Of a DNA stretch of 64,000 nucleotides, positions 11,212 to 34,214 are shown piece by piece. Both the position numbers and the translations under genes were made by a program. The notes beneath the pieces were generated by a model that was given only the letters and a program-made list of their open reading frames with translations, made no database searches and was not told the DNA's origin. Source of the stretch: Tessaracoccus coleopterorum (GTDB lineage: Bacteria > Actinomycetota > Actinomycetes > Propionibacteriales > Propionibacteriaceae); NCBI RefSeq assembly GCF_011174705.1, contig NZ_JAANIJ010000001.1:2418001-2482000 (forward strand), in the 5' to 3' direction. How positions within the stretch are numbered: position 1 is the first letter of the stretch; every line of letters begins with the position of its first letter.

Positions 11212-12338
11212 TCAGTTGTAGACGATCACCTTGTCTCCGACCTTCGCCAGGTCGAAGAGCCGGGCGAGCGCCGCCTTGTTGCGCACGTTGACGCAGCCGT
11301 GCGAGGCGCCGTTGTAACCGCGGGCGGCGAAGTCGGGCGAGTAGTGGATTGCCTGGCCACCGCTGAAGAACATCGCGTACGGCATGGCCGTGTGATAGAG
11401 GCTCGACACATGGTTGCGGGACTTCCAGTTCACCTGGAAGGCGCCGTTGCGGGTGGGCGTCAGTTCCGAACCGAAGCGGACGTCGAGGACGGTGTCGACC
11501 TTGCCGTTGACGACCCAGGCCATCTTGCGCTGGTTCTTCGAGATGCAGAACGCGCGACCGGTCATGCAGCGCCGGTCGAGGCGGAAGCCCTTCTGCACCA
11601 GCGGGCTGGTGATGACCGGGACGGGCTTGCCTGCGGTCGGGACGCCCGATGGCCGGGGAGCGGTGGCAGGGATGGTCTTCACCCAGGGGATGGTCGCGGT
11701 CTCGAACCGGACGATCCCGTTGAACACCCACTGGTCCTTCTGGACGATCTTGCCGTTGACGAGCGAGGCGACCGTTGCCACGGCGTAGGAACGGCAGGCG
11801 CCCCTACCGGTGGCGGGGGTGTCGCACTCGGAACGCCACCTGCGGCCGTCGGCGGCGGTCCAGGAACCGGTCTGCGCGAGCTTGTTGCCTGCCCAGACGG
11901 AGCGCGGGGAGGGCAGGTAGGTGAGGTTGTTGAACGTCCAGTTGTTCCGCGTGTACCACTGGCCCTTGGACAGGTAGACCGTCGAGCCGAAGATGCTGGT
12001 GCGGCAACGGATCGTGGTGGAGGAGTACGATCCGCACTCGGTGAACCAGTAGCGGCCGTTGACCAGGTGGTACCCGGGGTCACGTAGAGGGCCTGCTCAG
12101 GGGTGAGCTTCGGCGGTGTCGGCTTGGCCGACGCGGTCGGCTTGGGTGACGTGCTCGCGGTCGGCTTGGGCGACGTGCTCGCGGTCGGCTTGGGTGACGT
12201 GCTCGCGGTCGGCTTGGGCGACGCGGTGGGGCTTGCCGTCGGTCCGGGGCCCGGGACCCCGGTGTCGGCGGTGGCCGTCGGCGCGACCATCGACAGCGAC
12301 ATGGCGGCCGCTGCGACTGCGAAGAGCAACTTGCGCAT
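11212..12338 (-). CDS. Secreted L,D-transpeptidase (YkuD domain) with Ser/Pro/Thr linker and W/C-rich module (one frame slip)
   Basis: Exported cell-wall enzyme that forms 3-3 peptidoglycan cross-links or attaches proteins. Domain order in about 375 residues: signal peptide (MRKLLFAVAAAAMSLSMVAP), a linker of tandem SPKPTAST repeats, a ~125-residue Trp/Cys-rich module (11704-12086), then a C-terminal YkuD domain. The catalytic signature is HYSPDF followed by GASHGCVNVRN, with the nucleophilic Cys. The start at 12338 follows GGAGG. The frame slips at about 12072 inside the module (GGG for GGGG). The same module occurs in the LRR protein at 28371-29773 and the glycoside hydrolase at 33806-39250; its function is unknown. 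Confidence 0.9.
11704..12086 (-). other. W/C-rich extracellular module, copy A (in the L,D-transpeptidase)
   Basis: Encodes about 127 residues with four cysteines and many tryptophans. Fixed blocks in order: TPG.H.VNGR.W, then RCRTSI, WTFNNLTYLPSPRS, GSWTAADGRRWRSECDT, CRSYAV and WVFNGIVRF. Copies B (29302-29687) and C (33806-34214) share these blocks. I do not recognise a named domain. It lies between the linker and the catalytic domain here. Confidence 0.75.
12118..12225 (-). repeat. 24-base coding minisatellite (SPKPTAST linker)
   Basis: Three full 24-base units (12136-12159, 12160-12183, 12184-12207) differ by single C/T changes, with partial units on both sides. Each encodes eight residues of the SPKPTAST linker of the L,D-transpeptidase. 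It is a coding repeat, not a CRISPR array. Confidence 0.85.
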
Positions 12339-12485
12339 GGTGGTGGGATCCTCCTAGCGGTTCAACCGGGCCATCGTAATCCGGTGATCGGTTCAGAACT
12401 AATCACCCGGGTGGCCCCTGACACCCTCTACTACGCATTCCAGTGTGCCCGTGGTTGCATGCCGATACACAGCGGAAGCGTGGGG

Positions 12486-13467
12486 TCAGCCCGCAGCGAG
12501 ACGGGCGAGCGACCGTTCCGTTGCGGTGTGCAGATGCACCCGGCCCACAGGCCGGCCGTGCCCGAGCACGGGGTGGGGCGCCAGCGCGAGGAGTGCGTCG
12601 GTGGCCAGTCCCAGCGCGGCCAGGACGCCCACCAGCACGGGGATGTTGCCCCTGTGGTTGCCGTCGGCCGTCTTGACCGCGATGCCGGTGCCGTCGGGCA
12701 GTCCGGCGGCGAAGGCGCCCTCCGCACCGAGCTTGCAGACGAGCCCCGGCACCTCGTGGTGGAACACCACCTCGTCGCGCCGCGTGCCGGAGGCATGCTC
12801 GGGATACCTCCGGAAGGCATCGGCGATCGGCCGTGCCTCGCCGTCGTCCGCGGACGCCAGGCGGCCGAACGAACGGGCGAGCCCCGTCAGGGTGACGGCG
12901 AACGCCGGTGCCCCGCAGCCGTCGACGACCGGGTCTCCGACCGGCTCGCCCGTGTATTGGGCCAACGCGGCCCGGGTTGAGCGTTGTAACGGATGCGCAG
13001 CGTCGCGGTAGTCATGGAGCGACCAGCCAGCCCGCACGCAGGTGCGCAGCATGCCCGCGTGCTTGCCGGAGCAGTTGTGGGCAACCGGCTCCCTGCCGTG
13101 CCCCTGCCTGACCCACTCGACGAGTGCCTCCTCGTCCCAGGGCAGTGAAGGTGGCGTCTGCAGCGCGTCGACGGTGAGGCCGCAGCCCTCCAGGATCGAG
13201 ACGACAGCCTGCCTGTGGAAGGCCTCCCCGGCGTGTGAGGCCCCGACCAGCGCCAGTTCCGCACCGGTGACATCGAGTCCGCCGCGGAGCATCGCGATCG
13301 CCTGCACGGGCTTGACCGCGGAGCGGGGAGCGTCGGCGAGGTGACGTCGCCTACGGCGAGCCTGACGGTGCCGTCGGGCCCACCACCACCAGCGACCCGT
13401 GGTGTTGGGCCTCCAGATACGCGCCCCGCCAGACCTCCGTGAGCACCGGCTCCAAGCTGTTGACCAT
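12486..13467 (-). CDS. L-asparaginase, bacterial asparaginase II family (two frame slips)
   Basis: Hydrolyses L-asparagine to aspartate and ammonia; of the Asparaginase_II (PF06089-type) family found in actinobacteria and rhizobia, unrelated in fold motifs to E. coli AnsB. Repaired length about 327 residues. Family blocks: RSAVKPVQAIAML, VAHNCSGKHAGML and VVDGCGAPAFAVTL, whose Ser/Lys/Cys residues form the active-site region in this family. The start MVNSLEPVLTEVWRGAYLE at 13467 has TAGCCT seven bases upstream (leaderless). Slips at about 13325 and 13378 are short G/C runs near the N-terminus. Divergent from the SRP RNA gene. Confidence 0.88.
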
Positions 13468-13535
13468 GCCTGGCAGGCTACCGACTCCACAGGCGGTTGG
13501 ACGAGCCGGTCGGGCTATGGGCTAGACTCTCTTCA

Positions 13536-13624
13536 GGTTCCTCGCGCGGCGGTATCTCGCCCAACTCCCCAGGGTCGGAAGGCAGCAAGGGTAAGTGAGC
13601 TCTTCCGGGTGCGCGAGGGGCCCT
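13536..13624 (+). ncRNA. ffs: Signal recognition particle RNA, small bacterial type (4.5S)
   Basis: The diagnostic hairpin core CCCAGGGTCGGAAGGCAGCA lies at about 13567-13587, containing the conserved GGAAGCAGC-like internal loops that bind Ffh. Flanking arms CCTCGCGC (13540-13547) and GCGCGAGG (13611-13618) close the stem. A T run after 13621 (CCCTTTTTCT) acts as the terminator. A -10-like TAGACT sits at 13523-13528. Ends are approximate. Confidence 0.9.
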
Positions 13625-13658
13625 TTTTCTTCCCTCGCGAAGTGTCGGCGAGCTGAAT

Positions 13659-13664
13659 TAGGGT
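13659..13664 (+). promoter_or_regulatory. Leaderless -10 element for dnaX
   Basis: TAGGGT six bases before the GTG at 13671. It lies only about 35 bases after the SRP RNA terminator, so dnaX has its own promoter. Confidence 0.55.
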
Positions 13665-13670
13665 GAACGG

Positions 13671-15929
13671 GTGGACGACGAGCACGACGAGGATGAGTAC
13701 GGCCCGATCGACGAGAGCTACGGGTCGGCGGGTCTGCCCGGTTTCGGACCGATGGACGGACCCGGGCTCTTTGACGATCCCGAGCCGGGGCCGCTCCCCG
13801 TGGAGCAGACCGGGCCCGGCCTCTTCGCCGAGGATGAACCCGCTGAAGAACTCCCGGCACCCGCTCCGGCCACGCCCGCGCCGGTGAACGCCACCCGCCG
13901 CACCCCGCGCCCGAAGCGCCGCTCGCGCTCTACCGCAGGTACCGGCCCGACACGTTCGCCGAGGTGATCGGCCAGGACCATGTCACCGTCCCGCTGCAGC
14001 GCGCCCTCACCAACAACCGGGTCAACCACGCCTATCTCTTCTCCGGCCCGCGTGGCTGCGGCAAGACCACCTCGGCACGCATCCTCGCCCGCTGCCTGAA
14101 CTGCGAGCAGGGCCCGACGGCCACGCCGTGCGGTGTCTGCCTCTCCTGCACCGATCTCGCGCGGGGTGGGCCCGGTTCGATCGACGTCATCGAGATTGAC
14201 GCCGCGTCCCACGGCGGCGTCGACGACGCCCGGGACCTGCGCGAGCGCGCCTACTTCGCCCCCGTCGCGAGCCGCTACAAGATCTACATCATCGACGAGG
14301 CCCACATGGTCACGCCGCAGGGCTTCAACGCGCTGCTGAAGCTGGTCGAGGAGCCCCGCCGCACACCAAGTTCATCTTCGCCACCACAGAGCCCGAGAAG
14401 GTGATCGGCACCATCCGGTCACGCACGCACCACTATCCCTTCCGGCTCGTGCCGCCGAAGGTGCTGAGCGACTACCTCGCCCACCTCTGCGACGTGGAGG
14501 GGTCGAGGTCGACCACTCCGCCATCCCTCTGGTGGTGCGGGCGGGTGCCGGATCGGTGCGCGACTCGCTCTCGGTGCTGGACCAGCTCCTCGGCGGCGCG
14601 GGTGAGGAGGGCGTCAGCTACAGCCAGGCGGCAGCGCTGCTCGGCTACACCCCGACGCGCTCCTGGACGAGATCGTCGACGCCTTCGCCGCCGGAGACGC
14701 CGCGGGCGTGTTCCGGACCATCGACAAGGTGATCGAGGTCGGGCAGGACCCACGCCGGTTCGCGGAGGACCTGCTGCGTCGCCTCCGAGACCTGGTGATC
14801 CTCGCCGCCGTCCCGGAGGCCGCCACCAACGGCATCCTCGACGTGGCCGCCGACCAGGCCCAGCGCCTGCAGACCCAGGTCGCCGGGATGGGTACGGGCG
14901 AACTGACCCGCGCCGCAGAGGTGATCGCGACAGGCCTGACCGAGATGCGCGGCACGACGGCGCCGCGCCTCCACCTCGAGCTGATGTGCTCGCGGGTGCT
15001 GCTGCCGGGAGCCGATGCGCACGAGCGGGGCCTGCACGCCCGGATGGATCGCCTCGAGCGTCGCGTCGGCATGATGGGCGAGGCGCCGGCCGCCCCGGCC
15101 ACGGACTGGACGGACGTGGCGCCCACTACGGTCGCTCCGGTGGCGCCCACCCGGACGCAGACCCCGCGGCCGGTTCCGGCCGAGCCCACCCACCCGGTGC
15201 CGGCACGACCCGCAGGCCCCGCCCGGCCCGGCAGAGCCCGCGCCACCAGCCGACCCCATGCCCAGCCGCGGCCGACACCGGTGCCCGCCCCCGAGCCGAC
15301 CCAGGCTCCGCAGCAGACACAGCCGCCCGCCGACGCGTCCCCACGGCAGCGACCCGCGGGTGCCCCACCCGCGGGGACGGCGACGCCCGACCAGCAGACC
15401 GCCCCGACTGCCGAGGCGAGGCCGGCGAGGCAGGCCGCCACCGGCCAGCTCACCGCCACCGAGCTCCGTAGGGTCTGGCCCAACGTCCTGGAGGAGGTGA
15501 AGCGACGCCGCCGGTTCACCCACATGCTGCTCAGCCAGCACGCGCAGGTGATCGACGTCGCCGACGGCGCCCTCACCCTGGGATTCTCCGGATCGGGCCC
15601 GCGCGAGAACTTCGGTGCCGGGGGCAGTGTCGATGTCCTCGTCGACGCGCTCATCGAGGTGATCGGCGTCGAGTTGCGCATCAACCCGGTCGTCTCGGGG
15701 CCGCCCCCGTCGAGTCACACGCAGAGCAGCGTCCCCCAGGTGCGCCGGTGGTGCCCGTCGAGCGGCCCGAGGCCGCCTCAGCGCCCCCGCCGCCGCCCCA
15801 CCGCCGGAGGTGGAGGCGGAGGTCTCCACCGACGACGAGGTGCTTGACGCCACGCACAATGCCGAGGAACTGCTGAGCAACACGTTCGCCGCCGAGCTCA
15901 TCGCGGTGCGTGAGGCCGACGAGCGCTGA
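13671..15929 (+). CDS. dnaX: DNA polymerase III subunit gamma/tau, DnaX (six frame slips)
   Basis: Clamp-loader ATPase subunit of the replisome. Repaired length about 754 residues: an acidic N-terminal extension (VDDEHDEDEYG start, rich in Asp/Glu/Pro), the AAA+ domain beginning ALYRRYRPDTFAEVIGQDHV, Walker A GPRGCGKTTS, a four-Cys zinc module (CLNCEQG to CLSC), Walker B YIIDEAHM, sensor FIFATTEPEKV, then a long Pro/Ala/Thr-rich linker and a C-terminal domain. The slips at about 13910, 14353, 14498, 14651, 15706 and 15798 are each one base short in a G/C run. They scatter through the gene, unlike the single A-rich programmed slip known in E. coli dnaX. Followed by ybaB and recR. Confidence 0.93.
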
Positions 15930-15974
15930 AGCGCTCGTATGCTTGAGTGCCCAAGGGAAACGACAGGAGAAGAG

Positions 15975-16283
15975 ATGTTTGGTGACTTCGATCTGAACTC
16001 GCTGATGCAGCAGGCCCAGAAGATCCAGAGCGACGTGGAGCGCGCCCAGCGCGAGCTGTCGACCAAGGAGTTCGAGGCCTCCGCAGGCGGCGACCTCGTC
16101 ACCGTACGCATCAACGGCCGCGGCGAGCTGCAGCACGTCGACATCAAGCCCGAGGCATGGGACCCGGAGGATCCCGACACCCTCTCCGCGCTTCTGATCG
16201 CCGCCTTCCGCGCCGCGAAGTCCGAGGCGGACGCCGCCATGGAGGCGGCGATGCCCGACCTGCCGCAGATCCCGGGAATGTGA
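15975..16283 (+). CDS. ybaB: YbaB/EbfC family nucleoid-associated protein
   Basis: Small DNA-binding dimer of about 102 residues, intact. Starts MFGDFDLNSLMQQAQKIQSD behind AGGAGA; the N-terminal helix and the block LVTVRINGRGELQHVDI are typical of EbfC/YbaB. The dnaX-ybaB-recR order is conserved across many bacteria and implies a replication/recombination role. Located 45 bases after dnaX and 13 bases before recR, so probably co-transcribed. Confidence 0.93.
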   Translation: MFGDFDLNSLMQQAQKIQSDVERAQRELSTKEFEASAGGDLVTVRINGRGELQHVDIKPEAWDPEDPDTLSALLIAAFRAAKSEADAAMEAAMPDLPQIPGM

Positions 16284-16296
16284 GGCCGGCCCACCC

Positions 16297-16909
16297 GTGT
16301 ATGACGGCCCCATCCAGGAACTGATCGACGAACTGAGCCGCCTACCCGGGATCGGGCCGCGCGGCGCCTCCCGGATCGCGTTCCACCTCCTCGACGCACC
16401 TGAGGAGGATGTTCTTGCGCTGGCCGATGTGCTGCGGCGCCTCAAGGAGTCGTCCCGGTTCTGTGAGGTCTGCTTCAACATCTCGTCCGAGGAGCGCTGC
16501 CGCATCTGCCGCGACCCGCGGCGCGACCGCACCCAGGTGTGCGTCGTAGAGGAGTCCAAGGACGTCGTCGCGATTGAACGCACCAACGAGTTCCGTGGGC
16601 TCTACCACGTGCTCGGCGGAGCGATCTCGCCCATCGACGGCAAGGGCCTGCGGACCTCCACACCCGCGAGCTGTTCCAGCGGCTCGCCGACGGTGAGGTG
16701 CAGGAGGTCATCCTGGCCACCGATCCCGACACGCAGGGTGAGGCCACCGCCGCGTACCTGAGCCGCATGCTGCGTGACTTCGGGGTCCGCGTCACGCGCC
16801 CGCGAGCGGGCTTCCCGTTGGCGGCGACATCGAGTACGCCGACCAGGTCACCCTCGGCAGGGCCTTCGAGGGGCGCCGCGCGATGTTCGAGCCCGAGAGG
16901 GTCCTCTGA
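16297..16909 (+). CDS. recR: Recombination protein RecR (two frame slips)
   Basis: Works with RecO (and RecF) to load RecA at gaps. Repaired length 204 residues, typical. Contains the helix-hairpin-helix [17 protein letters not shown], the four-Cys zinc finger (FCEVCFN to CRICRD) and the Toprim domain ([14 protein letters not shown], then [14 protein letters not shown]). It starts with GTG at 16297. Slips at about 16648 and 16799 are short C runs; repaired, the protein ends AMFEPERVL at 16909. Confidence 0.93.
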
Positions 16910-17825
16910 GTTCCCTCATCCCGGCCGACTTCCACGCGCTGCTCGGTGGTCGGGCCGCCGACGAGGAGGGGGAGTCTCCGGCGCCGACTGGCTGGTGCGC
17001 CTGCCGCATCTCATCGAGAGCCACCTCGAGCGCTGGACGCTCCGGCCGGACGGGGCAGCCTGGCACGGCGAATGCGCCATGGTGCTGCCTGTCGTCGACG
17101 GCGACGGCCGGCAGGCGGCCCTCAAGCTGACGTGGCCCCACGCGGAGGCGACCCACGAACATCTCGCGCTCCGGATCTGGGACGGTCGGGGGCCGTCCGG
17201 CTCATCGCCGCGCACCCGGCGGAGCAGGTGCTGCTCCTCGAACGTCTGGACGGCGACCGGACGCTCAACGACGTGCCCATCCTCGAGGCGTGTGAGGTGA
17301 TCGGTCGCCTCTTCGGTGAGCTCGACCGGCCCGCCCCGCCGCAGATCCCGCCCCTCGCGACGAAGGCGATCCGCTGGCGTGGGCAGTTCGCGGCCCTTCC
17401 TCCGCTGGTGCCGAGACGGCTCGTCGAGCAGGCGGCCTCGACCCTCGACGACCTGCTCCTCGGACCGGCCCCGGCCCGGTTGGTCCATGAGGACCTGCAT
17501 GACGCAAATGTGCTCGCCGCGACCCGCGCCGAGTGGTTGGCCATCGACCCCAAACCCGTGTCGGGGGAGTGGGCCTACGCCGTCGCGCCGATCGTCTGGA
17601 ACCGTGCGGGGTAACCGCACGGGCCGGGTCGCCGCGCACCCACGTGCGGCTGCGCGCGGAGATCGTCGCCGACACCGCGGGTCTCGACCTCGACCGCGTG
17701 ATGGCGTGGACGTTCGTGCGGCTCGTCCTCAACGCGGTGTGGGCTGCCGATCTCGCCCGGCTTCCGGCGACTTCCTGGGCCGGATGATCGCCCTCGCGAA
17801 GGCATTTGCCGACGGCGTTGAGTGA
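16906..17825 (+). CDS. Aminoglycoside/hydroxyurea phosphotransferase family kinase (four frame slips)
   Basis: Kinase of the APH(6)/hydroxyurea phosphotransferase family (PF04655-type), which includes streptomycin 6-kinases; many chromosomal members have no known drug substrate. Repaired length is about 307 residues. The catalytic loop is [12 protein letters not shown] and the metal-binding block is [15 protein letters not shown]. The start is unclear: the frame [12 protein letters not shown] has no ATG or GTG near the recR stop, so the coordinate (a CTG overlapping recR) is approximate. Slips at about 16971, 17189, 17609 and 17758. Downstream of recR, likely co-transcribed. Calling it a resistance gene would go beyond the evidence. 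Confidence 0.8.
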
Positions 17826-17926
17826 GCCCGACCACCTGATTCCCGGAATCCGACGACTTTGTCGGTGGCTGCACCTATTGTCTGTCGTGCAGGCCCCAAC
17901 CGCGGAAGCGAAGGAAGGTGAAAGGC

Positions 17927-18336
17927 ATGTCGATCCTGCTCAACCCCTATCTGGCGCTCGATGGCACCTGTCGCGAGGCCATGGAATTCTACCGTTTCTT
18001 GCTCGGCGGGGAACTCTCCGTCATGACGTTCGGCGAGGCGCAGGGAGGCGCCCAGTTCCCGGGGTCGGACCGTGTGATGCACGCCAGCCTCACCACCGAT
18101 GACGGCATGGTCATCTTCGGAAGCGACACCATGGATGGAATGCCTCAGACGGTGGGCGATACGGTCGCCATGTCGATCTCCGGCAGCGATGAGCGACTCC
18201 CGTCCTTCCACGCCGGGCTTGCCGAGGGCGGGGCCGTGCTCGTCCCGTTCGAGAAGCAGATGTGGGGGACACCTATGGCATGGTCCGTGACCGGTTCGGC
18301 GTGCTCTGGCACGTGAACCTGGTCGCCGACCAGTGA
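17927..18336 (+). CDS. VOC superfamily (PhnB/glyoxalase-like) protein, one frame slip
   Basis: 136-residue protein of the PhnB-like branch of the vicinal oxygen chelate fold; members often have no assigned reaction. Begins MSILLNPYLALDGTCREAM and shows the family blocks FYRFLLGGEL and VMHASLTTDDGMVIFGSD; the C-terminal strand block RFGVLWHVN is recovered after adding one G at about 18264-18268 (GGGGGG expected). The start at 17927 has AAAGG five bases upstream; a GTG at 17918 is possible. No catalytic assignment is justified. Confidence 0.82.
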
Positions 18337-18340
18337 GGTA

Positions 18341-18357
18341 GGCCGCGGCAAGCGGCC
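18341..18357. terminator. GC hairpin after the VOC gene (probable terminator)
   Basis: GGCCGC (18341-18346) pairs with GCGGCC (18352-18357) around a 5-base loop, starting four bases after the VOC stop codon. No T run follows. It is the first of three consecutive hairpins before the ABC operon. Confidence 0.4.
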
Positions 18358-18363
18358 CACCGA

Positions 18364-18381
18364 CCGGCGGGAGACCGCCGG
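18364..18381. other. GC hairpin with GAGA tetraloop
   Basis: CCGGCGG (18364-18370) pairs perfectly with CCGCCGG (18375-18381) around the loop GAGA, a GNRA-type tetraloop on the plus strand. Second of three hairpins in this gap. Confidence 0.45.
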
Positions 18382-18385
18382 GCAG

Positions 18386-18450
18386 CGGCGCCACCTTCGT
18401 CAGGGGCTGGTCCGGATTGGGACGGCTCAGGGGGAACGAAGGTGGCGCCG
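18386..18450. other. 15-base inverted repeat with a 35-base spacer
   Basis: CGGCGCCACCTTCGT (18386-18400) is the exact reverse complement of 18436-18450. The long spacer is larger than in a normal terminator. It ends 32 bases before the -10 of the ABC operon, so it could be a terminator, an operator or a regulatory RNA fold; I cannot decide. Confidence 0.6.
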
Positions 18451-18481
18451 TCTTCGCGTCCGGCCGGTCTCATCGTGCGTG

Positions 18482-18487
18482 TAGTGT
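18482..18487 (+). promoter_or_regulatory. Leaderless -10 element for the ABC exporter operon
   Basis: TAGTGT seven bases before the GTG at 18495; no ribosome site is visible. Confidence 0.5.
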
Positions 18488-18494
18488 GCCCCGC

Positions 18495-19415
18495 GTGGAG
18501 CCAGTGATTTCTGCCCGAAGCCTCACGAAGCGCTACGGCGACTTCGTCGCGGTCGACGGCATCGACTTCGACATCGCCCCGGGGAGTCGTTCGGCTTCCT
18601 CGGCCCCAACGGCGCGGGCAAGTCCACGACGATGCGGATGATCGCGGCCACCTCGACCCGCACCTCAGGCGAGCTGACTGTGCTGGGGTTGGACACCAAT
18701 CACCACGGCCCCGAGATCCGCGCCCAGCTCGGCATCGTCCCGCAGGGCGACCTGCTCGACGAGGAACTGCGGGTGATCGACAACCTCATCGTCTACGGAG
18801 GCTACTTCGCCCTGCCCGCGCCTACGTCAGGGAACGCGCCGAGCAGCTCCTCGACTTCGCCCAGCTCCGGGAGAAGCGGACGGCCAGGGTCGACGGTCTC
18901 TCCGGCGGCATGAGACGGCGCCTGACGATCGCCCGTGGCCTGATCAACAACCCCGGGTGATGCTGCTCGACGAGCCGACCACCGGGCTTGATCCGCAGGC
19001 CCGTCACATCCTGTGGGACCGGCTGTTCCGGTTGAAGGAGGAGGGAACGACCCTGGTCGTGACGACCCATTTCATGGACGAGGCCGAACAGTTGTGCGAC
19101 AGGCTCGTCGTCGTGGACAAGGGTCGGATCGTGGCCGAGGGATCCCCGTCGAAGTTGATCCGGGACTACTCGACCCGCGAGGTGCTGGAGGTCCGGTTCG
19201 GGTCGGGCCGCAACGAGCAGGCGGCACGCGCGCTCGAGGGGGTCGGGAGCCGCCGTGAGGTGCTCGCCGACCGCATCCTGATCTACGACGACTTCGGGGA
19301 ACAGGCGCTTCAGCGGGTCGTCGAGCTCGGCTTGAGCCCCATCGCCTCGCTGGTGCGCCGCTCCTCGTTGGAAGATGTCTTCCTCCGGCTCACCGGCAGG
19401 AGCCTCATCGAATGA
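18495..19415 (+). CDS. ABC exporter ATP-binding protein, DrrA/NodI type (three frame slips)
   Basis: ATPase of an ABC-2 type exporter. Repaired length is about 307 residues. Walker A is GPNGAGKSTTM, Q-loop IVPQGDLLDEEL, signature LSGGMRRRLTIARGL, Walker B VMLLDEPTTGLDP, H-loop VVTTHFMDEAE. The C-terminal ~80 residues (after EGSPSKLIRDY) are the extension usual in NodI/DrrA-type subunits. Slips at about 18581, 18819 and 18952 are each one base short. It overlaps the first permease by ATGA and, with two permeases, forms a three-gene operon. Cargo unknown; lipids, polysaccharide or drugs are all possible for this class. Confidence 0.9.
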
Positions 19416-21041: not shown

Positions 21042-21134
21042 CGGCCCGGCCCGACCACCCGTGTCGCCGACCCCACCGGGGCAGGACCCTGGTGGGTAGC
21101 ATCGGTAACCATCAGCGTCGAAAGGCAGTCACCC

Positions 21135-23960: not shown

Positions 23961-24029
23961 CCTCGTCGGTTCATCCGCGCCGCCGGGCCCGGACCTGCGA
24001 CGATGGAACCGGAAGACGGAGGAGGAGCG

Positions 24030-25437: not shown

Positions 25438-25460
25438 GGCTCCATTACAGCAGGGGGACC

Positions 25461-26904
25461 TCACCCGTGGGTGAGGCGACCACCGCAGATCGTGGAGCGG
25501 ACGCGCATCGTGCGGAGCCGCCCCGCCACCTCATCGGCCGGTCCCGGCTGGAGCGGGTCGGACTCCACCACCACGACGTCGCCCCGCGCCCCGACGCGGA
25601 GCCGCTGCCCGTCGGTGGATGCCGAGAGCGCCTCCCGCGCGGTGATGGCCTGCTCCTGGTGCCAGCCGGGCCGGTCGTCGGAGCTGCGCCACACGGCCGC
25701 CGCCATGGCGAGCCAGGGGTCGGGGCGGGCCACCGGGGCGTCGGAGCCGAGGGCGAGCGTCGCGCCCGCGTCGAGGAGGGAACGGGCCATGAAGGCGCGC
25801 TCCGCCCGGTCGCCCCACACCAGGTCGGTGAGGTCGCGGTCGTCGGGGAGGTGCGCGGGCTGCATGCTCGCCGTCACCCGGAGTGCCGCGAAGCGCGGCA
25901 CATCGGCGTGGCTGAGCAGCTGGGCGTGCTCGACGGAACCGTGGGCGCCCGTCGCCTCGAACGCGTCGAGGGCGAGCGTGGCTGCCCGGTCGCCGATGGC
26001 GTGCACCGCCGCGTCCAGCCCCGCCGAGGCGGCGCGGCGGAGCAGGGCATGGAGCCTCTCGGCCGGGAGGTTCGGTGCCCGGCGGAGCCCTCGTACGGTT
26101 CCTCGCACCATGCGGTGCGGGTCGAGAGCGAGCCGTCGCTGATGATCTTCAAGGGCCCCATGGTGATCAGCGGACCGGCGAGCGGGTCGCCGGTGCGCAG
26201 GGCGCGACCGATCACCTCGTCGAGTTGGTGTTCGTAGGTTCCCGCGCGCACCCGGAGTCGGTCGATGCCTGCCTCCGCCCGCGCGGGCCAGTCGTTGAAC
26301 GCATCGGTGAACTCGAGATCGACGATGCCCACCAGCCCGCGGGCGGTCAGCCGGTCCACCGCCGCCAACTCCTGCGCCCGCGTCGGGGTCGTTCCGGGGA
26401 GCGACCCGAGGTCGGCCAGCACCGGGAACCAGTCGCCCTCGCGCAGCGGGCCGGTCCGGGGAGGCAGTCCCAGCAGGCGCAGCGCCGCGGAGTTGAGCCA
26501 TCCGTTGTGGGCGTCGCCCGAGATCAGGACCACCGGCCGCGCACCGCTCACCGCGTCGAGTTCGGCGACGCCCGGCTCCCGTGCCCAGCCTCCCGAGCGG
26601 TGCCCGAACCCGATCAGCGGGCCGTCCCCGGGCATGCCCGAGAGCGCGCGGCGGATCGTCGCGCAGACGGCCTCGGGCCCGGGCTCTGCGGAGATGTCGA
26701 GCCAGGTCGTCGAGCGCGTCCACTGGCCGAAGTGGACGTGCGCGTCCCACAGGCCCGGCACCAGGTACCCGCCGTGCGCATCCACCAGCCGTGCGCCGGT
26801 CGTGTCGAGCCCGGGCCCATCCCGACGATCCGGCCGCCCTCGATCCGAACGTCCATCCGGTGTCCGCCCGCGAGGCGGCCTCCGGCGATGACCAGCGCGG
26901 TCAT
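25461..26904 (-). CDS. Amidohydrolase family protein, YtcJ-like (two frame slips)
   Basis: Metal-dependent hydrolase, probably acting on an amide or cyclic substrate; unknown. Repaired length about 481 residues. The first metal ligands are in LWDAHVHFGQW (HxH); later histidines are in VHAIGDRAA and SVEHAQLLSH, and the terminal aspartate is in ALGSDAPVARPDPW. These follow the YtcJ/Amidohydro_3 pattern. It starts MTALVIAGGRLAGGHRMDV at 26904, overlapping the MFS stop by four bases. Slips at about 26087 and 26818. Last gene of the mycoredoxin-MFS-amidohydrolase operon. Confidence 0.88.
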
Positions 26905-28064
26905 GCCCGCCTCGGCGGGGTCAGCGACGGCGACAGCACGAGGCCGAGCACGGCCGCGACGGGCAGCACGATGAGCGCCCAGCGCAGGTCGACGGCATCG
27001 GCGACCAGCCCGATCAGCGGGGGCCGGCGAAGAAGCCGACCCGCATGAGCCAGGTGACGAAGGTCAGGCCGTTGCCGTGGGCCATGCCGGGCAGTTCGTT
27101 CGCGGCGTGCATCGCGAGCGGGATGGCCGTGGCGATGCCCAACCTGCGCAGGCGAAACCGACCAACGTCATGGCGGCCGACGGGAATGCGACGGCCGCCG
27201 CGGTGCCGACGAGCGCGATGACGAGCCCCTGCGTGACGACGCCCCGCGCGCCGATGCGGTTGGTCAGCGCGTCTCCGGTGAACCGGCCGATCACCTGCGC
27301 TCCCTGCAGCGCCACGAAGGCCATGCCCACCACGAACGGGGTCACCTCGAACATCGAGTCCATGTAGACGGCGCCCCACGAAGCCCCGAGTCCTCGATGA
27401 TGCCGACGGAGGCTCCCAGCAGACCGAGCGCGATCAGGCGTGGCAGCCAGCGGCGGGGATTCCGCCCGACACGGTGGTGCCCTCCCCGGCGGGCCGCGCG
27501 TCCGGTGTGCGGAGCAGCAGCGTCTTCGCGTAGATGGCCATCGCGCCGAAGATCACGAAGGCGACGAGGCACTGCACCCAGATCGGCACCCGGGCCTGGG
27601 CCGCGATCGAGCCCAGCAGGCCGCCCGACACGGCCCCGACGGACCACCAGCCGTGCAGGCCGTTGACGATCGAGCGGCCGTAGAGGCTCTGAACCCGCAG
27701 CCCGTGGGCGTTCATGGAGATGTCGCTGATCGCGTCGAAGCCCGCCATCGCGAAGATCCCGAGCGCGAACACCGGCCACACGGTTGCGTTGCCGTACACG
27801 CTGAGCATGGCGAGCCCGAGCAGTGCGGTCACCACGTTGACGCGCGCCGAGGAGTACCGCCGGATGAGCCGCGCGGTGAACAGGCCCGCGATCAGTCCGC
27901 CGAGCGGGCCGAGCCCCACGACGAGACCCAGCCGAGGTCGTCGAGCCCGAGGGCGGCCTTGATCTCGGGGTAGCGGGCAGGAGGGAGGCGAAACCGACAC
28001 CGTTGAGCCAGAACATGATCGTGACGCCCCATCGGGCTCGGACGACCTCACGCGCGGGGGCCAC
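26901..28064 (-). CDS. Major facilitator superfamily transporter (about six frame slips)
   Basis: About 389 residues, 12 likely membrane helices. Starts VAPAREVVRARWGVTIMFWL at GTG 28064; blocks include GLGPLGGLIAGLFTARLIRR, the cytoplasmic-loop motif after helix 2, and SIVNGLHGWWSVGAVSGGLLG. The pattern matches YbjJ-like MFS permeases. Slips at about 27925, 27980, 27455, 27380, 27145 and 27025 break it into three visible pieces; all repair with one added G/C. The stop overlaps the amidohydrolase ATG, suggesting uptake of its substrate or export of its product. Confidence 0.82.
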
Positions 28065-28072
28065 GCCGTGTC

Positions 28073-28320
28073 CTAGGCCGTCAGGGCAGCGAGCACCAGG
28101 TCGGGATCGGGGTTCGTGTGTGCCACGCCGTCGATCACCACCGTGGGAACGACCTCGTTGCCGTCGTTGACGCCGGCTACGAATGCCGCGGCCTCCGGGT
28201 CGCTCCAGATATCGATCCAGTCGGCGCGCGGGGCGTGGTCGCCGAGTACGCCCGTAGCCGCTCGCAGTACATGCAGCCGGGGCGCCAGTAGACGAGGACG
28301 CCGCTCTCTCCAGTCATCAC
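28073..28320 (-). CDS. Mycoredoxin/glutaredoxin-like protein (one frame slip)
   Basis: Thiol-disulfide oxidoreductase of about 82 residues. The active site is WRPGCMYCERLR (CxxC), as in mycoredoxins that use mycothiol; the cis-Pro block VVPTVVIDG and the tail PDLVLAALTA follow. Repair of one G at about 28255 makes the frame continuous. The GTG at 28320 is chosen since TAGCCT lies seven bases upstream; the ATG at 28317 is equally close. Eight bases separate its stop from the MFS start, so the three genes are an operon. Confidence 0.85.
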
Positions 28321-28370
28321 CCGGGACAGGCTACCGGCCCGTTCCGCGCCCGCCCGCTCCGGCCCGGTCG

Positions 28371-29773
28371 TCACCTGAGGATAGTCAGACCTCCTGCGAC
28401 GAGGGCGTCCAGGCTCTGCCAGTCCGTGGCGCTCACACCCACCGCCGACAGGACCTGCAGTTTCGTCAGGGAGGCCAGCGGTGCGACCCGCTGGACGGGT
28501 GTCCTGTCGATGTCGAGCTGGGTCAGGCTGGTGAGCTTCCCGATCGGGGTGAGATCGCCGATCCCGGTGCTGGTGATCGACAGTATCGAGAGCGACGTCA
28601 TGCCACCCAGCGGCGCGGCGGAGGTGACGTCGGGGTTTGACGCGACGTCGAGGATCAGGAGCGCCTTCAGATTGGTGAGCGGGGTGAGGCTCGACAGATT
28701 CGAGTCGGCGATGGACAGTCCCCGCAACTGGGTGAGCGACGTGAGCGATGAGGCGTCCAGCCGGGTGCTCGACGACAGGTCGAGGAAGACCAGCCCCGCC
28801 GCGTCCTTCAGGGGTGCGACGCTGCGCACGTCGGTGCCGATCGCCTCGACGGTGTTGAGGTTGGGCAGCTTGCCGAGCGGGGCCACGTCAGTGACCGGGT
28901 TGTCGGAGATGTACAGGGTGTACAGGGCGGTCATGCCCGCGAGCGGGCGAGGCTGGTGATCCGGTTCCTGGACAGGTCCAGGAACCGGAGGCGCGTCAGC
29001 TTCGTCAGGGGGTGATGCTGGTGATGGAGTTGGCCGCCAGATCGAGGCTGGTGAGGCCGGTGAAGTTCTCCATCCCGGACAGGTTCTCGACGTTGCCGTT
29101 GCAGGTGGCCTCCACGACCGCGGCGGCGGTGGCGATGGTGAACGGAGCGGTGGCGCCGATCCCTGCCGCCCTGCGCATGCACGCCTCGAGGTCGGGGTCC
29201 CGGAAGGTCACCCCGGTCGGCGGCGTGGTCGGCGGGGTGGTCGGTGGCGTCGTCGGCGGGGTGGTGGGTGGCTTGGTCGGTGGGGTGGTGGGTGCGATGG
29301 AGAACCGCACGATGTTGTTGAACACCCACTTGACCTGGTGCCGGAAGCCGGTGGCGGTCTTCACGATCACGCTGGCCTGTGCATAGCTGCGACAGCCGTT
29401 GCGCCCGGTGGTGGGGTGTCGCACTCGGTGCGCCACTTCCGCCCGTCCGTCGCGGTCCAGGAGCCCGCCTTGCCGAGCGGGTTCCTCACCCACGCGGAGC
29501 GCGGCGAAGGCAGGTAGGTGAGGTTGTTGAACGTCCAGGTGTTGCTCGTGACGTAGCGGCCGTTGCGGTACGTGATCACCGTCGCCAGGATCTCGGTGCG
29601 GCAGCGCGTGGTGATGGAGTACTTCTCGCAGCGGGTGTCCCACCAGCGGCCGTTGACGAAGTGTCTGCCCGGAGTCGTGTAGACGTCGATCTCCGCCTTG
29701 GCGGGGAGGCCGTGACCAGGCTTCCGGTCGCGACGAGAAGTGTGATGAGAGCGATCCGTAGCAGGTTTTTCAC
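28371..29773 (-). CDS. Secreted internalin-like LRR protein with W/C-rich module (four frame slips)
   Basis: Exported protein of about 468 residues, probably a surface adhesin or ligand-binding protein. Order: signal peptide (VKNLLRIALITLLVATGSLV from GTG 29773), W/C-rich module (29302-29687), a PPTT-type linker, a short helical stretch with two Cys (DLEACMRRAAG, VEATCNGNVENLSG), then about 11 leucine-rich repeats of ~22 residues of the internalin kind, for example LTNLKALLILDVASNP. No LPXTG or C-terminal anchor is seen. Slips at about 29705, 29408, 29010 and 28952. Its module matches those of the L,D-transpeptidase and the large glycoside hydrolase. Confidence 0.85.
29219..29293 (-). repeat. 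PPTT-coding 12-base repeat linker
   Basis: Degenerate 12-base units encode a run of PPTT/PPTK repeats between the W/C module and the LRR region of the secreted protein. Unlike the SPKPTAST and PTPTPTVKPT linkers of the other two module-bearing proteins. Confidence 0.75.
29302..29687 (-). other. W/C-rich extracellular module, copy B (in the LRR protein)
   Basis: About 128 residues right after the signal peptide. Same ordered blocks as copies A and C: TPGRHFVNGRWW, RCRTEI, WTFNNLTYLPSPRS, GSWTATDGRKWRTECDT, NGCRSY and WVFNNIVRF, with four cysteines in equivalent places. One slip (about 29408) falls inside it. Confidence 0.75.
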
Positions 29774-30063
29774 GGGTCCCCAGATGCGAGCGATGGTGCC
29801 GACGGACCGCATCCGCTCCGCTGAGACGATGGGCCTTCTTCCGGTGCATCCGGGAGGGCCGTCGGCCGCCCCGGTCCAGCCACGATAGGCCGCACCCGTC
29901 GGATGATGCGAGGACAAGGCGATATCCATGCGCGCGACTCGCGGCCCGGGTGGCCGATCCTCACGCCGTGGCCGCAGCCGAACCTCGGGACGCGGGTGCC
30001 GGTTCGGCGCGGCCGCGCGGGATTTCCGGAAGACCTCCGTCTCGCCGGACGTGTCGCCCGGTG
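29774..30063. other. Intergenic region between the LRR gene and pckG: nothing recognised
   Basis: 290 bases with no open frame that shows coding character. It must hold the promoter of the LRR gene, but I see no convincing -35/-10 pair; the PEP carboxykinase stop is at its right edge. Confidence 0.4.
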
Positions 30064-31940
30064 TCAGCGGCCGAAGCTGCTCGGTTCCGCGCCGAGGGTC
30101 GTCTCCAACTGCAGGAGCTCGTCGACCAGCTCGCGCGGAAGGCGCCAGCCGAATGTGTCGAACCAGCGGCCGATGCGCGGCACCTCGTCGCGCCACTCCT
30201 GCTCCCGGTATCCGACCACCTCCCGGAGATCGGACTCCGTGATGTCCAACCCTCCACGTCGAGCCCGTCCTCGGTGGGGAGCAGGCCGATCGGGGTCTCG
30301 CGGGCATCCACGAGGCCGTCGACGCGCTGCGCGATCCACTTCAGTACCCGGGAGTTCTCGCCGAAGCCCGGCCACATGAAGCGGCCGTCGCCATCGCGTC
30401 GGAACCAGTTGACGTAGAAGATCTTCGGCAGCTTGTCCTGGTCGGCCTGCGCGCCGATGTCGATCCAGTGCTGGACGTAGTCGGCGACGTGATAGCCGAT
30501 GAACGGCAGCATCGCCATGGGATCGCGCCGCAGCACCCCGACGGCCCCTTCGCGGCGGCCGTCGACTCCGATGAACAGGTAGCCCCCATGAAGACGCCGT
30601 GGCGCCAGTTGCGCGACTGCATCACAAGGGGACGGTGTTCTCCCTGCGACCGCCGAAGATGATCGCGTCGAGGGCGACGCCGGCCGGATCGTGGTACTCG
30701 TCCGCCAGGATCGGGCACTGCTCGATCGGGGTGCAGAACCGGCTGTTCGGGTGGGCGGCCTTCTCCTCGGGGCGGCCGCCCTCGGGCCGGATCCCCGTGC
30801 CAGCGGCGGCCCTTCCAGTCGTGCAGCGTCGCCGGCTTCTCCGGGTCATGCCCTCCCACCAGATGTCGCCGTCCTCGGTGAGGGCCACGTTGGTGAACAG
30901 CGAGTTTCCCCGGCGGATGGCGCGCATCGCGTTGGGGTTGGTGTCCTCGCTGGTGCCGGGGGCCACGCCGAAGAACCCCGTCTCCGGGTTCGTCGCGTAC
31001 AGGCGGCCGTCGTCGCCGAACCGCAGCCAGGCAATGTCGTCTCCGAGGGTCTCGACCTTCCACCCCGCCACCGTCGGTTCCAGCATGGCGAGGTTGGTCT
31101 TGCCACACGCGGACGGGAAGGCCGCGGCGATGTGGTAGGCGCGCCCTCGGGGAGGTGAGCTTCAGGATCAGCATGTGCTCGGCCATCCAGCCCTCGTCGC
31201 GGCCATCACCGACGCGATGCGCAGCGCGTAGCACTTCTTGCCCAGCAGCGAATTGCCCCGTATCCGGAGCCGTACGACCAGACCATCTTCTCGTCGGGAA
31301 GTGGACGATGTACTTCGTCTCGTTGCAGGGCCATGCGACGTCGGGCTGGCCTTCGGCCAGCGGCATGCCGACCGAGTGCAGGCACGGCACGAAGTCGGCT
31401 CCGGTGGCCTCCATCGCCGCGAGCGTCTCCGCCCCATCCGCGTCATGATCCTCATGGAGAGCGCCACGTAGGCAGAGTCGGAGACCTCCACCCCGAACTT
31501 CGGATCCTCCGCGTCCAGGTGACCCATGCAGAACGGCATCACATACATCGTCCGGCCCACCATGCAGCCGTCGTACAACTCGGTCATGATCCGCTTCATC
31601 TGCGCCGGATCCATCCAGTTGTTGGTGGGGCCGGCGTTGCGCTCGTCGTTGGAGCAGATGAAGGTCGAGTCCTCGACGCGGCCACGTCGTCGGGGTCGGT
31701 CCGGGCATACAGCGAATTGGGCTGGAGGGCATCGTTGAGGCGCACCAGGGTGCCCGCATCGACGAGCCCGGCGGCGAGCGCAGCGGCCTCCTCGGACGAG
31801 CCGTCACAGTAGTGGATGGCATCGGGCCTGCACAGGTCGACGACCGTGTCGAGCCAGGCGAGAAGGCGGGCGTGGGTCGGCGCGGTGCCGGTGCTCGGGA
31901 TCAGCTGGCGACGTGGGTGGGATTCGGACTGGTTGAACAT
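30064..31940 (-). CDS. pckG: Phosphoenolpyruvate carboxykinase (GTP), PckG (many frame slips)
   Basis: Converts oxaloacetate and GTP to phosphoenolpyruvate, CO2 and GDP (or the reverse), linking the C4 and C3 acids; central in propionic fermenters. Repaired length is about 628 residues. Starts [18 protein letters not shown] behind GGAGGAG. The kinase-1a P-loop is [13 protein letters not shown]; other blocks are [15 protein letters not shown] and SNDERNAGP, all of the GTP-type enzyme. Seven or more single-base slips, spread over the gene, all at G/C runs. The C-terminus [18 protein letters not shown] is intact. Confidence 0.9.
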
Positions 31941-32033
31941 CGGTCTCCTCCGTCGGGGCAGGTCAGCGTTGAGTGCCTCCAATGCCAGGGTAGGCCAGCG
32001 CGACGCGCTGTGGGGAACCATTGGCGTGTCGGG

Positions 32034-32039
32034 TAGGGT
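32034..32039 (+). promoter_or_regulatory. Leaderless -10 element for the first lipoprotein gene
   Basis: TAGGGT seven bases before the GTG at 32047. Confidence 0.45.
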
Positions 32040-32046
32040 TCCGGAT

Positions 32047-32681
32047 GTGCGTAAACCCCTGATGTTCGCCGGTGTCTTTGCCCTTGTCGCGGCGCTCAGC
32101 GCCTGCGCGGGGCCGATGGCGGAGCGACCCCGCGGGTCACCCGAGCGTCGCCGACCCCGGCACGGCCCTTCCCGAACCGACCCTCGCTCCGCCCCGAGCG
32201 TGGAGGCCACCCGCTGCCCGAGCCGTCCGCCACCGGGCCGTCGCAGGCACCCGAGGTCGTTCCCACTCAGGAGTCGCCCCAGGCATCGCTTCCCCCGGTC
32301 GAGCAGCCGCCGGTCGTCGGCGGCCCGTGGGCCGAGGTCGACGTGACGGTCCGGGACGCGGCCCAGGCCGGGGCCGCGTCCTCACTCCCGGCCTCGTTGC
32401 GCGCCTTCCTGGCGAGCCGGGTCGGAGTCGAGGACGACGGCGGCTGCACCACGACCGAAGTGGAGATCAGGGCCGTCCACCCGGACGGGTTCGCCTTCGG
32501 ATCCGAGGAGTCCGACTGTGGCGGCGGGCAGGTGATCTGGGGCATCACCGAGGGCCAGTGGCACTACATCACCCAGTTCGAGGACGCCATCCCCTGCCGG
32601 GAGTTCGCCCTCAACTCGGTGCCGGAGGCCGTGCCGGGGTTGCGCTGCCTCGATGACTCCGGGAAGGCGGCCGACTACTGA
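32047..32681 (+). CDS. Secreted lipoprotein, paralogue A (unknown function, at least one frame slip)
   Basis: Signal peptide VRKPLMFAGVFALVAALSAC ends in lipobox LSAC, so the protein is lipid-anchored outside the membrane. A Pro/Thr/Ser-rich spacer of ~75 residues follows (its frame is uncertain because one or more bases are missing near 32115), then a ~110-residue C-terminal domain with four Cys, including the block VHPDGFAFGSEESDCGGGQ. Paralogue B downstream shares this domain. No known family recognised. The stop overlaps the next start (TGATG). Confidence 0.75.
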
Positions 32682-33322
32682 TGCCCAACCTCCGAACCGC
32701 CGCGGTCGCGGCCGGGCTGCTCCTCGTCGTCGGGTGCGCCCCGGAAACCACCGTCGGTCCCACCCCACCCGAACCGCCACCTCCACCCCGTCGCCCTCGT
32801 CGTCCGCATCCGCCTCGGTGAGCCCGACCCGAGCGCCGCACCGACGCCCGACAGGGTCACTCCCAGGCCGTCGGCGTCCCGCCGGCGACCGCCGTGCCGA
32901 GCGCGCGCCCTGAGCCCTCGGCGGCTCCGGTGCCGACCCCACCCCGATACCGTCGGCACCCGACCGGTCCGTAGCCTGGGTCGATGTCGACTCTCAGGCC
33001 GAGACGCCAGAGGGTGCCGCCTCGCTGGCAGGGTACCCGAGAGTTTCCGCGGTTACGCGGCGGCGCTGTTGGGCGGCCCCGACTCCGACGGCTGCAGCAC
33101 CACGTACCTCAGCGTGATGAGCGTCCACCCGGACGGGTTCGTCCTGGGCAGCGAGGGCGGCGACTGCGGCGGCGGTCAGACGATCTGGGCGCTGCGGGCG
33201 GCTCGTGGGACCGGGCGATCATGCTCCAGGCCGAGCCTTCGTGCACGGAGTTGGAGGGCGCGGGAATCCCGGTCGGCGTCGGGCTGCAGTGCAGCGACGG
33301 GGACGACTCGAGGACCTACTGA
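32681..33322 (+). CDS. Secreted lipoprotein, paralogue B (unknown function, about three frame slips)
   Basis: Signal peptide from ATG 32681 (MPNLRTAAVAAGLLLVVGC) with lipobox VVGC. A low-complexity Pro/Ser/Thr spacer follows, then a C-terminal domain matching paralogue A: SVHPDGFVLGSEGGDCGGGQ against A's VHPDGFAFGSEESDCGGGQ, and further Cys at PSCTELEG and VGLQCSDGDD. Tandem duplication is the simplest origin. The spacer frame cannot be fixed with confidence. It ends four bases before the glycosylase-like gene. Confidence 0.72.
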
Positions 33323-33326
33323 GCAC

Positions 33327-33745
33327 GTGAGGATCTGGTCGCTCCATCCAAGGTTCCTGGACCGGCAGGGGTTGATCGCCTGTTGGCGGGAGACACTGCT
33401 GGCGCAGGCCGTGCTCGCCGGACGCACCAGGGCTACCGGAACCATCCGCAACTCGACCGGTTCCGTGCCGTCGACGACCCGCACTCCACTGTCGGGGCAT
33501 ACCTCGCGGCGCTCGCCGACGAGGCGGACGCGCGGGGTACCGGTTCGACCGCGGCAGGATCGACACGGTCGGCGTCGACGCCTCGATGGACGTCACCGAC
33601 GATCAGCTGCGGTTCGAGCGGGCCCATCTCGCGGCGAAGCTCGCGGTCCGTTCGCCCGGACTGCTCGCCGCCCTCCCGAACTCCCGGACCCCCATCCGCT
33701 CTTCCGGGTCGTCCCGGGCCCGTGGAGGCATGGGAGCGACCCTGA
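33327..33745 (+). CDS. Pyrimidine-dimer DNA glycosylase-like protein (Pyr_excise family), four frame slips
   Basis: 140 residues after repair, of the T4 endonuclease V (PF03013-type) family, whose viral member cuts at UV-induced cyclobutane dimers. Starts VRIWSLHPRFLDRQGLIACW at GTG 33327; the blocks WRETLLAQAVLAGRTRGYR and HPQLDRFRAVDDP are the usual conserved part of bacterial members. Small bacterial proteins of this family are often uncharacterised, so activity is not certain. Slips at about 33430, 33538, 33688 and 33720. Follows the lipoprotein pair by four bases and ends just before a strong hairpin. Confidence 0.78.
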
Positions 33746-33751
33746 ACATGG

Positions 33752-33789
33752 CCGGCGGCCTCCGATCCGGGTGGATCGGAGGCCGCCGG
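33752..33789. terminator. Bidirectional terminator hairpin
   Basis: A perfect 17-base inverted repeat (33752-33768 with 33773-33789) around GGGT, between the glycosylase-like gene stop at 33745 and the convergent glycoside hydrolase stop at 33806. No T run, as is common in high-GC actinobacteria. Confidence 0.8.
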
Positions 33790-33805
33790 TTCGTGTCCGC
33801 TCCCG

Positions 33806-34214
33806 TCAGGCCTTGAAGCGCACGATGTTGTTGACGACCCAGCCCTGGACGGTGCTGAAGGTGGTCCTGCCACCGGTCGAGGTCGCCTTGACGTAGGTCG
33901 TCCAGGTGTACGACCGGCAGCCGTTGCGGCCCGTGACCGCGGTGTCACACTCGGTGCGCCACCTACGACCGTCGGTTGCGGTCCATGCACCGGTGTGGCC
34001 GAGGGGTTGGCCGCCCACTGCGCGCGCGTCATCATCGGCAGGTACGTCATGTTGTTGAACGTCCAGCCGGTGACCTGCGTGTAGCCGTTGCCCCTGCGCT
34101 GAATGGTGCTCGCCCAGATGCTCGTGCGGCAGCGGATGTTCTGCGAGTACGGCTCGCAGGTGGTGTACCAGCGGCGGCCGTTGACCGTGTGCAGACCCGG
34201 GTGGAGTAGACGTC
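33806..34214 (-). other. W/C-rich extracellular module, copy C (C-terminus of the glycoside hydrolase)
   Basis: About 135 residues forming the very C-terminus. Ordered blocks as in A and B: TPGLHTVNGRRWYTTC, RCRTSI, WTFNNMTYLP, GAWTATDGRRWRTECDT, NGCRSY and VVNNIVRF, four cysteines conserved. Slips at about 34200 and 34008 lie within it. Confidence 0.75.

Follow-up and report, generated by a model that had tools for sequence, protein, structure and literature searches.

A duplicated four-cysteine module of Tessaracoccus secreted proteins as a candidate cell-surface retention domain

The stretch of DNA considered here, referred to as the window, comprises 64,000 nucleotides of the Tessaracoccus coleopterorum genome (contig NZ_JAANIJ010000001.1, positions 2,418,001 to 2,482,000) and encodes three copies of one Trp/Tyr-rich module with four Cys residues, each on a different host protein. 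From sequence comparisons and a predicted structure we consider it probable that this module is a non-covalent retention domain, which would hold its hosts at the surface of the producing cell, on the cell's own wall, in the manner of the SLH, CWB2 and WxL domains while matching none of them.

Sequence, predicted fold and placement of the module

A profile built from 80 modules was run over the six-frame open segments of the window and matched exactly three places, each of them on the minus strand; the reversed window, searched as a control, gave 0 matches. Copy 1 is one row among the profile's 80 (row 2 of alignment A2), and copies 2 and 3 lie outside the profile. A sequence-only reading of the window had described three copies of one four-Cys module, and all of them were recovered where it had placed them. 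The module is about 135 residues long in each of the three copies and is an internal duplication, consisting of two homologous halves of about 65 residues with four strands and two Cys apiece. The four Cys are invariant across all 80 profile rows. When 80 residues of copy 3 were used as the query against the T. coleopterorum genome, 40 pieces were matched, which belong to 31 separate places between 0.12 and 3.02 Mb on contig 1, and the alignment of 13 modules of this genome, chosen as intact in a single frame, has 26 invariant columns including the four Cys.

The predicted structure is a confident all-beta model (pLDDT 95, pTM 0.83), and three fold comparisons of this model with PDB structures returned no clear fold match, SSB-like OB-fold proteins being among those considered. 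Searches of Pfam, NCBIfam and the PDB sequences gave matches at chance level at best, a PHROGs search likewise found no named domain, and none of SLH, CWB2, LysM, SH3b, SPOR, WxL or dockerin matched when the 13 modules were compared with Pfam at E<=1. The earlier statement that no named domain has this signature holds against these libraries and fold comparisons. The family is unnamed in the libraries searched, its fold is perhaps new, and its function class is one already known if the surface-retention reading is right. A literature search, for which subscription journals were mostly out of reach, found no description of the module; PMC6403190 mentions Tessaracoccus a single time, among the wall hydrolases of a table.

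Scanning named genomes yielded 279 confirmed relatives, of which the best 80 matches, in 79 loci, were kept and analysed; the record of each of the 79 loci bears the name Tessaracoccus, Arachnia, Propionibacterium or Propionibacteriaceae in its title. The module ends 0–4 residues before the stop codon in 70 of the 79 loci (exactly 1 residue before it in 43 of these) and starts directly behind a signal-peptide-like N-terminus in 8; in the odd remaining locus, L112, a partial module match is followed by 52 more residues. Every one of the 79 hosts contains exactly one module. The 40 residues ahead of C-terminal modules have a median Pro/Thr/Ser/Glu content of 62.5% (69 hosts) compared with 26.7% in the remainder of the host (68 hosts), and the content of these 40 residues reaches at least 50% in 55 of the 69. 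By a simple hydrophobicity rule, a signal-like stretch is present in 49 of the 62 hosts that are not truncated at the edge of their locus, and the 13 others fail the rule, perhaps as a result of placing each start at the first codon that could serve. A single, terminal module preceded by a Pro/Thr/Ser/Glu-rich stretch is laid out like an anchor with its spacer, which supports the retention reading.

Both placements, C-terminal and behind the signal, occur among the copies of the T. coleopterorum genome. In a tree of the modules (99 rows with few columns, 38 of 95 inner branches being open) the C-terminal placement changes at least 7 times, compared with 20 times when the labels are shuffled, and modules of related hosts from different species tend to cluster. 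The fusions look mostly inherited together with their hosts, because placement changes are few and the modules group by host family. The sequence-only reading had the module moving between middle, N-terminal and C-terminal positions, which the counts above do not bear out as a general rule, and its term "mobile" is too strong for copies that tend to track host families and shift position more rarely than shuffled labels do. Two genes of Tessaracoccus rhinocerotis about 8 kb apart (L115 and L116) carry modules that hardly differ (branch lengths 0 and 0.007), a case of recent duplication or gene conversion. At two contig ends of Tessaracoccus bendigoensis (L118 and L120) the module rows and the preceding 30 residues are identical, which means either that the gene is duplicated or that the assembly produced the identity.

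Host proteins and occurrence of the module

After 21 near-duplicates had been set aside, the Pfam scan covered 58 of the 79 hosts; 17 of the 79 are cut off at the end of their locus. Among the matches listed are at least ten glycoside hydrolase (GH) families (GH10, GH20, GH26, GH35, GH43, GH53, GH59, GH85, GH101 and GH123), as well as pullulanase-type, subtilase, esterase, 5'-nucleotidase, metallophosphatase, leucine-rich repeat (LRR) and NlpC/P60 hosts. Several hosts also contain carbohydrate-binding modules (CBMs) or F5/8-type domains, and peptidoglycan enzymes are represented by NlpC/P60 and by the YkuD host in the window. Enzymes of these families act on mucin-type glycans, plant glycans, proteins, nucleotides and peptidoglycan. 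As the hosts have no common substrate, their common target would most simply be the producer cell itself.

Some individual hosts deserve mention. In L098 of T. rhinocerotis the module is N-terminal on a protein resembling D-glucuronyl C5-epimerase, and at the edge of the same locus 60 residues match a UDP-sugar dehydrogenase (75%), a pair that possibly hints at a uronic-acid surface polymer. A conserved secreted domain of 390 residues with no Pfam or NCBIfam match stands behind the module in L092 (4421-5590) and also in L106 and L113. This body was found in 8 of the 39 genomes of the genus, all of them module-positive, and because all 8 carry a module of their own it is a host and was rejected as an independent co-occurring partner. 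The module of another host of this type, L266 (G003:C1:618978-620117 and the sequence upstream), is split by an in-frame stop. In four genomes (G012:C86, G024:C1 at about 1.25 Mb, G061:C40 and G000:C1 at about 1.37 Mb) the module-bearing subtilase has a sortase gene at a distance of about 5-6.5 kb.

In a search that scored no more than 21 candidates in each genome, the module was found in 15 of 198 genomes of the family, T. coleopterorum included, and in 1 of 29 genera, so that the 39 genomes of the genus divide into 15 positives and 24 negatives. In a set of 25 genus genomes, scored without this ceiling, nine were positive, with 53 matched pieces (not genes) in T. coleopterorum and 43, 48, 48, 17, 1, 38, 11 and 64 in the others; no matched piece was found in the remaining 16 or in 16 genomes from other families of the order. 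The genome with a single module, G018, has it at the C-terminus after a Pro/Thr linker, as is typical (L276, G018:C62:16001-30000), most positives having at least a dozen, and this copy was either gained late or is the last one left. In a quick tree built from rpoB alone, covering 34 of the 39 genus genomes, the module-positives do not form one clade (approximately unbiased test of a single clade, p-AU 2e-32). On this tree presence and absence change at least 8 times, five of the changes being forced by starred branches, the presence label is weakly clustered (42 of 500 shuffles are equally low), and the nearest neighbor of T. coleopterorum, G048, has no module.

A class-level search with a half-repeat profile over 394 genomes reached a second family, f31, and one genome of a third, f24. 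Matches at E<=0.01 came from 11 genomes, of which T. coleopterorum, four of f31 and the f24 genome (G233) were accepted, G544 and G582 appeared unrelated when read, and G289, G339 and G546 lay outside the reading. In a phylum sample of 396 genomes the module was found in T. coleopterorum alone, and it was not found in viral contigs or plasmids. By these searches the module is rare, yet not restricted to one genus: the sequence-only reading had named a known domain, or matches confined to this genome, as results that would speak against it, and instead no known domain emerged and relatives occur in the family as well as in two other families of its class.

Three full two-half modules are present per genome in 4 of the 5 f31 genomes. 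They are homologous to the Tessaracoccus module (profile-profile probability 99.8, E 8.6e-29, 27% identity over 133 columns), and the four Cys are retained in all seven that were aligned. Among seven copies that were read, the distance from the end of the module to the stop codon is 4-7 residues in six and 32 in one. Their hosts are a SpoIID/LytB protein (Pfam E 3e-14, NCBIfam E 3e-45), an Amidase_2 amidase (E 6e-15 and 1e-13 in two genomes) and a protein with no Pfam match, which we take to be carboxypeptidase-like. The module genes are adjacent to one another in all 4 genomes, and in all 4 a divergent LytR-CpsA-Psr (LCP) gene adjoins them, as judged by BLAST to the G301 gene; in two of the four the LCP assignment is also made by Pfam (PF03816, E 2e-46 and 1e-45). 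The f31 set supports the wall-anchor reading, since the neighbor is an LCP gene, which encodes a transferase of wall glycopolymers, and two of three hosts are of peptidoglycan-enzyme type, and it suggests that placing wall enzymes may have been an early use of the module. In the f24 genome the contig starts inside the module, and the second half ends one residue before the stop.

The three copies in the window and their hosts are listed in Table 1. Copy 1 has an unusual N-side placement, since a linker precedes the module, and the linker/signal stretch and the module are in different frames. Copy 2 follows directly on a signal-peptide-like stretch, and copy 3 is C-terminal, with two residues before the stop codon. 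A change of frame occurs inside the module in copies 2 and 3, as is to be expected of an indel-rich assembly (completeness 60.9%, two contigs), and the sequences were left unmended. Of the hosts named by the sequence-only reading, the L,D-transpeptidase and the LRR protein were confirmed by YkuD and LRR_4 matches; the giant glycoside hydrolase proposed for copy 3 is weakly supported, its host being read in pieces in which the Big_2, Big_3 and Big_4 domains are clear and the glycosidase match falls below threshold. Ordinary genes in the same window include an L-asparaginase II (12486-13490, minus strand) and a transglycosylase domain (42213-42977, minus strand).

Table 1. Module copies, linkers and host domains in the window (i-E, independent E-value; ORF, open reading frame).
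Feature	Position	Strand	Details
YkuD L,D-transpeptidase catalytic domain, host of copy 1	11221..11553	-	Pfam E 4.2e-17, residues 77-187 of ORF 11212-11781
Module copy 1	11704..12096	-	both halves in a single frame; profile match 11704-12084, i-E 6.5e-52
Signal-peptide-like start and Pro/Thr/Ser repeat linker before copy 1	12097..12338	-	ORF 11679-12338
Leucine-rich repeats, host of copy 2	28371..28934	-	LRR_4 E 3.3e-17
Pro/Thr repeat linker from copy 2 to LRR body	29203..29295	-	ORF 29005-29643
Module copy 2	29302..29687	-	frames 29397-29687 (i-E 4.3e-46) and 29302-29457 (1.1e-9)
Module copy 3	33815..34203	-	frames 33997-34203 (i-E 1.1e-31) and 33815-34012 (3.2e-27); ORF 33806-34297
Pro/Thr repeat linker before copy 3	34226..34297	-	ORF 33806-34297; repeat extends somewhat upstream
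Ig-like domains Big_4, Big_2, Big_3, host of copy 3	34335..35090	-	residues 185-436 of ORF 34047-35642
Probable body of copy 3 host	36558..38687	-	MGH1-like_GH 20.2 bits, below cut-off 27

Surface retention weighed against other readings

As we picture it, the module, joined to secreted proteins either at their C-terminus, mostly with a Pro/Thr/Ser-rich spacer ahead of it, or at their mature N-terminus, would hold enzymes of differing substrates on the producer's own wall by non-covalent binding. The four Cys would form disulfides, the expected pairs being C20-C29 and C90-C100 in the numbering of L047 (T. bendigoensis), the two halves may provide two ligand sites, and the binding partner may be a wall-linked glycopolymer; that the ligand is such a polymer rather than peptidoglycan is a guess, to which we give a little less than an even chance. 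More tentative is the proposal of a clade-specific display in which an unrecognised fold reads one wall glycopolymer, so that with a change or loss of the polymer the whole displayed set of enzymes would be lost together. This would explain the patchy presence, dozens of copies or none, in close relatives.

Several observations weigh against retention on a wall polymer. The single module of G018 departs from the dozens-or-none pattern, a UDP-sugar dehydrogenase stands beside the f31 cluster in only 1 of 4 stretches, and no gene for ligand synthesis was seen to track the module over the 39 genus genomes, for which no systematic search was made. An anticorrelation with sortase and LPXTG was not found: sortase is present in 39 of 39 genus genomes, which means that another route of display exists everywhere, and LPXTG anchors, found in 22 of 39, are few (1-2 per genome) and occur in 9 of the 15 positive and 13 of the 24 negative genomes; their scarcity, in genomes with and without the module, counts for the retention reading. 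Nor does a swap of anchors appear to be general, since only 2 of the 79 host bodies match (E<=1e-20) in the module-negative genome G020, in a search that covered 1.2 of its 3.05 Mb and for which two of the 79 bodies offered either no sequence or just 14 residues. For this reason most hosts look absent from G020 rather than re-anchored; as a rough contrast, drawn from differing data sets, 50 of the 79 bodies match another genome's host among the 79. An ecological loss of the degradative set would explain the presence pattern too. Module-free relatives of the subtilase host (44-49% identity) occur in positive and negative genomes alike, and this host was rejected as a case of anchor swap as the module-free group on both sides looks paralogous. 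The informative case among the two matches in G020 is an NlpC/P60 protein (67% identity over 101 residues), in which a different N-terminal region, coiled-coil-like by eye, replaces the module; it may be a paralogue.

The single terminal copy per enzyme, the internal duplication and the many glycosidase hosts would also suit a dockerin-like tag, by which enzymes are docked onto a scaffold protein in the fashion of a cellulosome. We regard this as improbable, given that an L,D-transpeptidase, NlpC/P60, SpoIID and amidase proteins are among the hosts, that the f31 genomes hold just three copies in adjacent genes, and that no dockerin match was found by Pfam in the 13 modules. A rough count, whose control worked, over about 1.0 Mb of partly overlapping DNA from several genomes, mostly around module genes, included 281 open reading frames longer than 500 residues, none of which outside the module hosts has more than three similar segments. 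CBMs, which are often internal or multiple, direct enzymes to a glycan outside the cell and not to the wall of the producer, and an all-beta, Trp/Tyr-rich module that often stands on carbohydrate-active enzymes could be expected to do the same; it is single and terminal, however, one module serves enzymes with unrelated substrates as well as peptidoglycan enzymes, and several hosts already own a CBM or F5/8-type domain, so that this reading is also an unlikely one.

A signal recognised by a dedicated export or processing machine, and perhaps cleaved after export, would account for the extreme C-terminal placement, the lineage-limited expansion and the patchy presence, and the C-terminal domain of type IX secretion is a comparable sorting signal. 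Against it stand the 8 of 79 modules that directly follow a signal-peptide-like start, and Gram-positive cells have no need of an outer-membrane step; its probability we place slightly lower still. Least probable of all, and very doubtful, is a domain for self-association or other protein-protein contacts that builds a surface layer, for which the many copies per genome and the beta-rich fold could be cited, and of which the small f31 set of three adjacent genes gives no suggestion.

If the surface-retention reading is true, many unannotated proteins of Tessaracoccus and Arachnia become predicted surface proteins, the family libraries would gain a new profile and perhaps a new fold, and the module could find use as a tag for display in high-GC Gram-positives, a group with, to our knowledge, few described general non-covalent anchors. 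The patchy presence within one genus would also make the link between polymer and enzymes testable between close relatives.

Comparison with known anchoring systems

LPXTG/sortase proteins have a Pro-rich spacer ahead of their C-terminal anchor, and the module likewise stands behind such a spacer. Unlike the LPXTG signal (PF00746), it leaves no room for a sorting signal behind it, since 70 of 79 modules end within 4 residues of the stop. Dockerin is an internally duplicated, single terminal tag of many glycosidases, all of which applies to the module as well; the differences are the predicted all-beta fold, the four Cys, the peptidoglycan-enzyme hosts and the fact that no scaffold was seen in the approximately 1.0 Mb scanned.

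SLH domains are helical and contain no Cys. In two papers they are described as repeats that retain secreted proteins non-covalently on a wall-linked polymer (PMC4973711, PMC5817068). The module resembles them in its repeated unit and in the proposed non-covalent hold of secreted proteins, and differs in having two halves and no SLH profile match, whereas SLH units of about 55 residues come mostly in threes. WxL (PF13731) is a wall-binding domain found inside the last ~120-190 residues of extracellular proteins (PMC5817068), and the module is similarly close to the C-terminal end; WxL, however, belongs mainly to Lactobacillales and Bacillales and has two W-x-L motifs, a pair that is absent from the module consensus (A2). 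CWB2 (PF04122) is common to 29 surface-family proteins of Clostridioides difficile, in which it is N- or C-terminal, and its ligand is an anionic wall polymer (PMC4973711). Like CWB2, the module is terminal at either end and shared by many secreted proteins; unlike CWB2, a motif of about 100 residues present in triplicate, it consists of two halves of about 65 residues with four Cys and occurs once per host. The reading of the module as a wall anchor is drawn by analogy with these three systems, because CWB2, SLH and WxL proteins are likewise held by a terminal domain behind a spacer (PMC4973711, PMC5817068).

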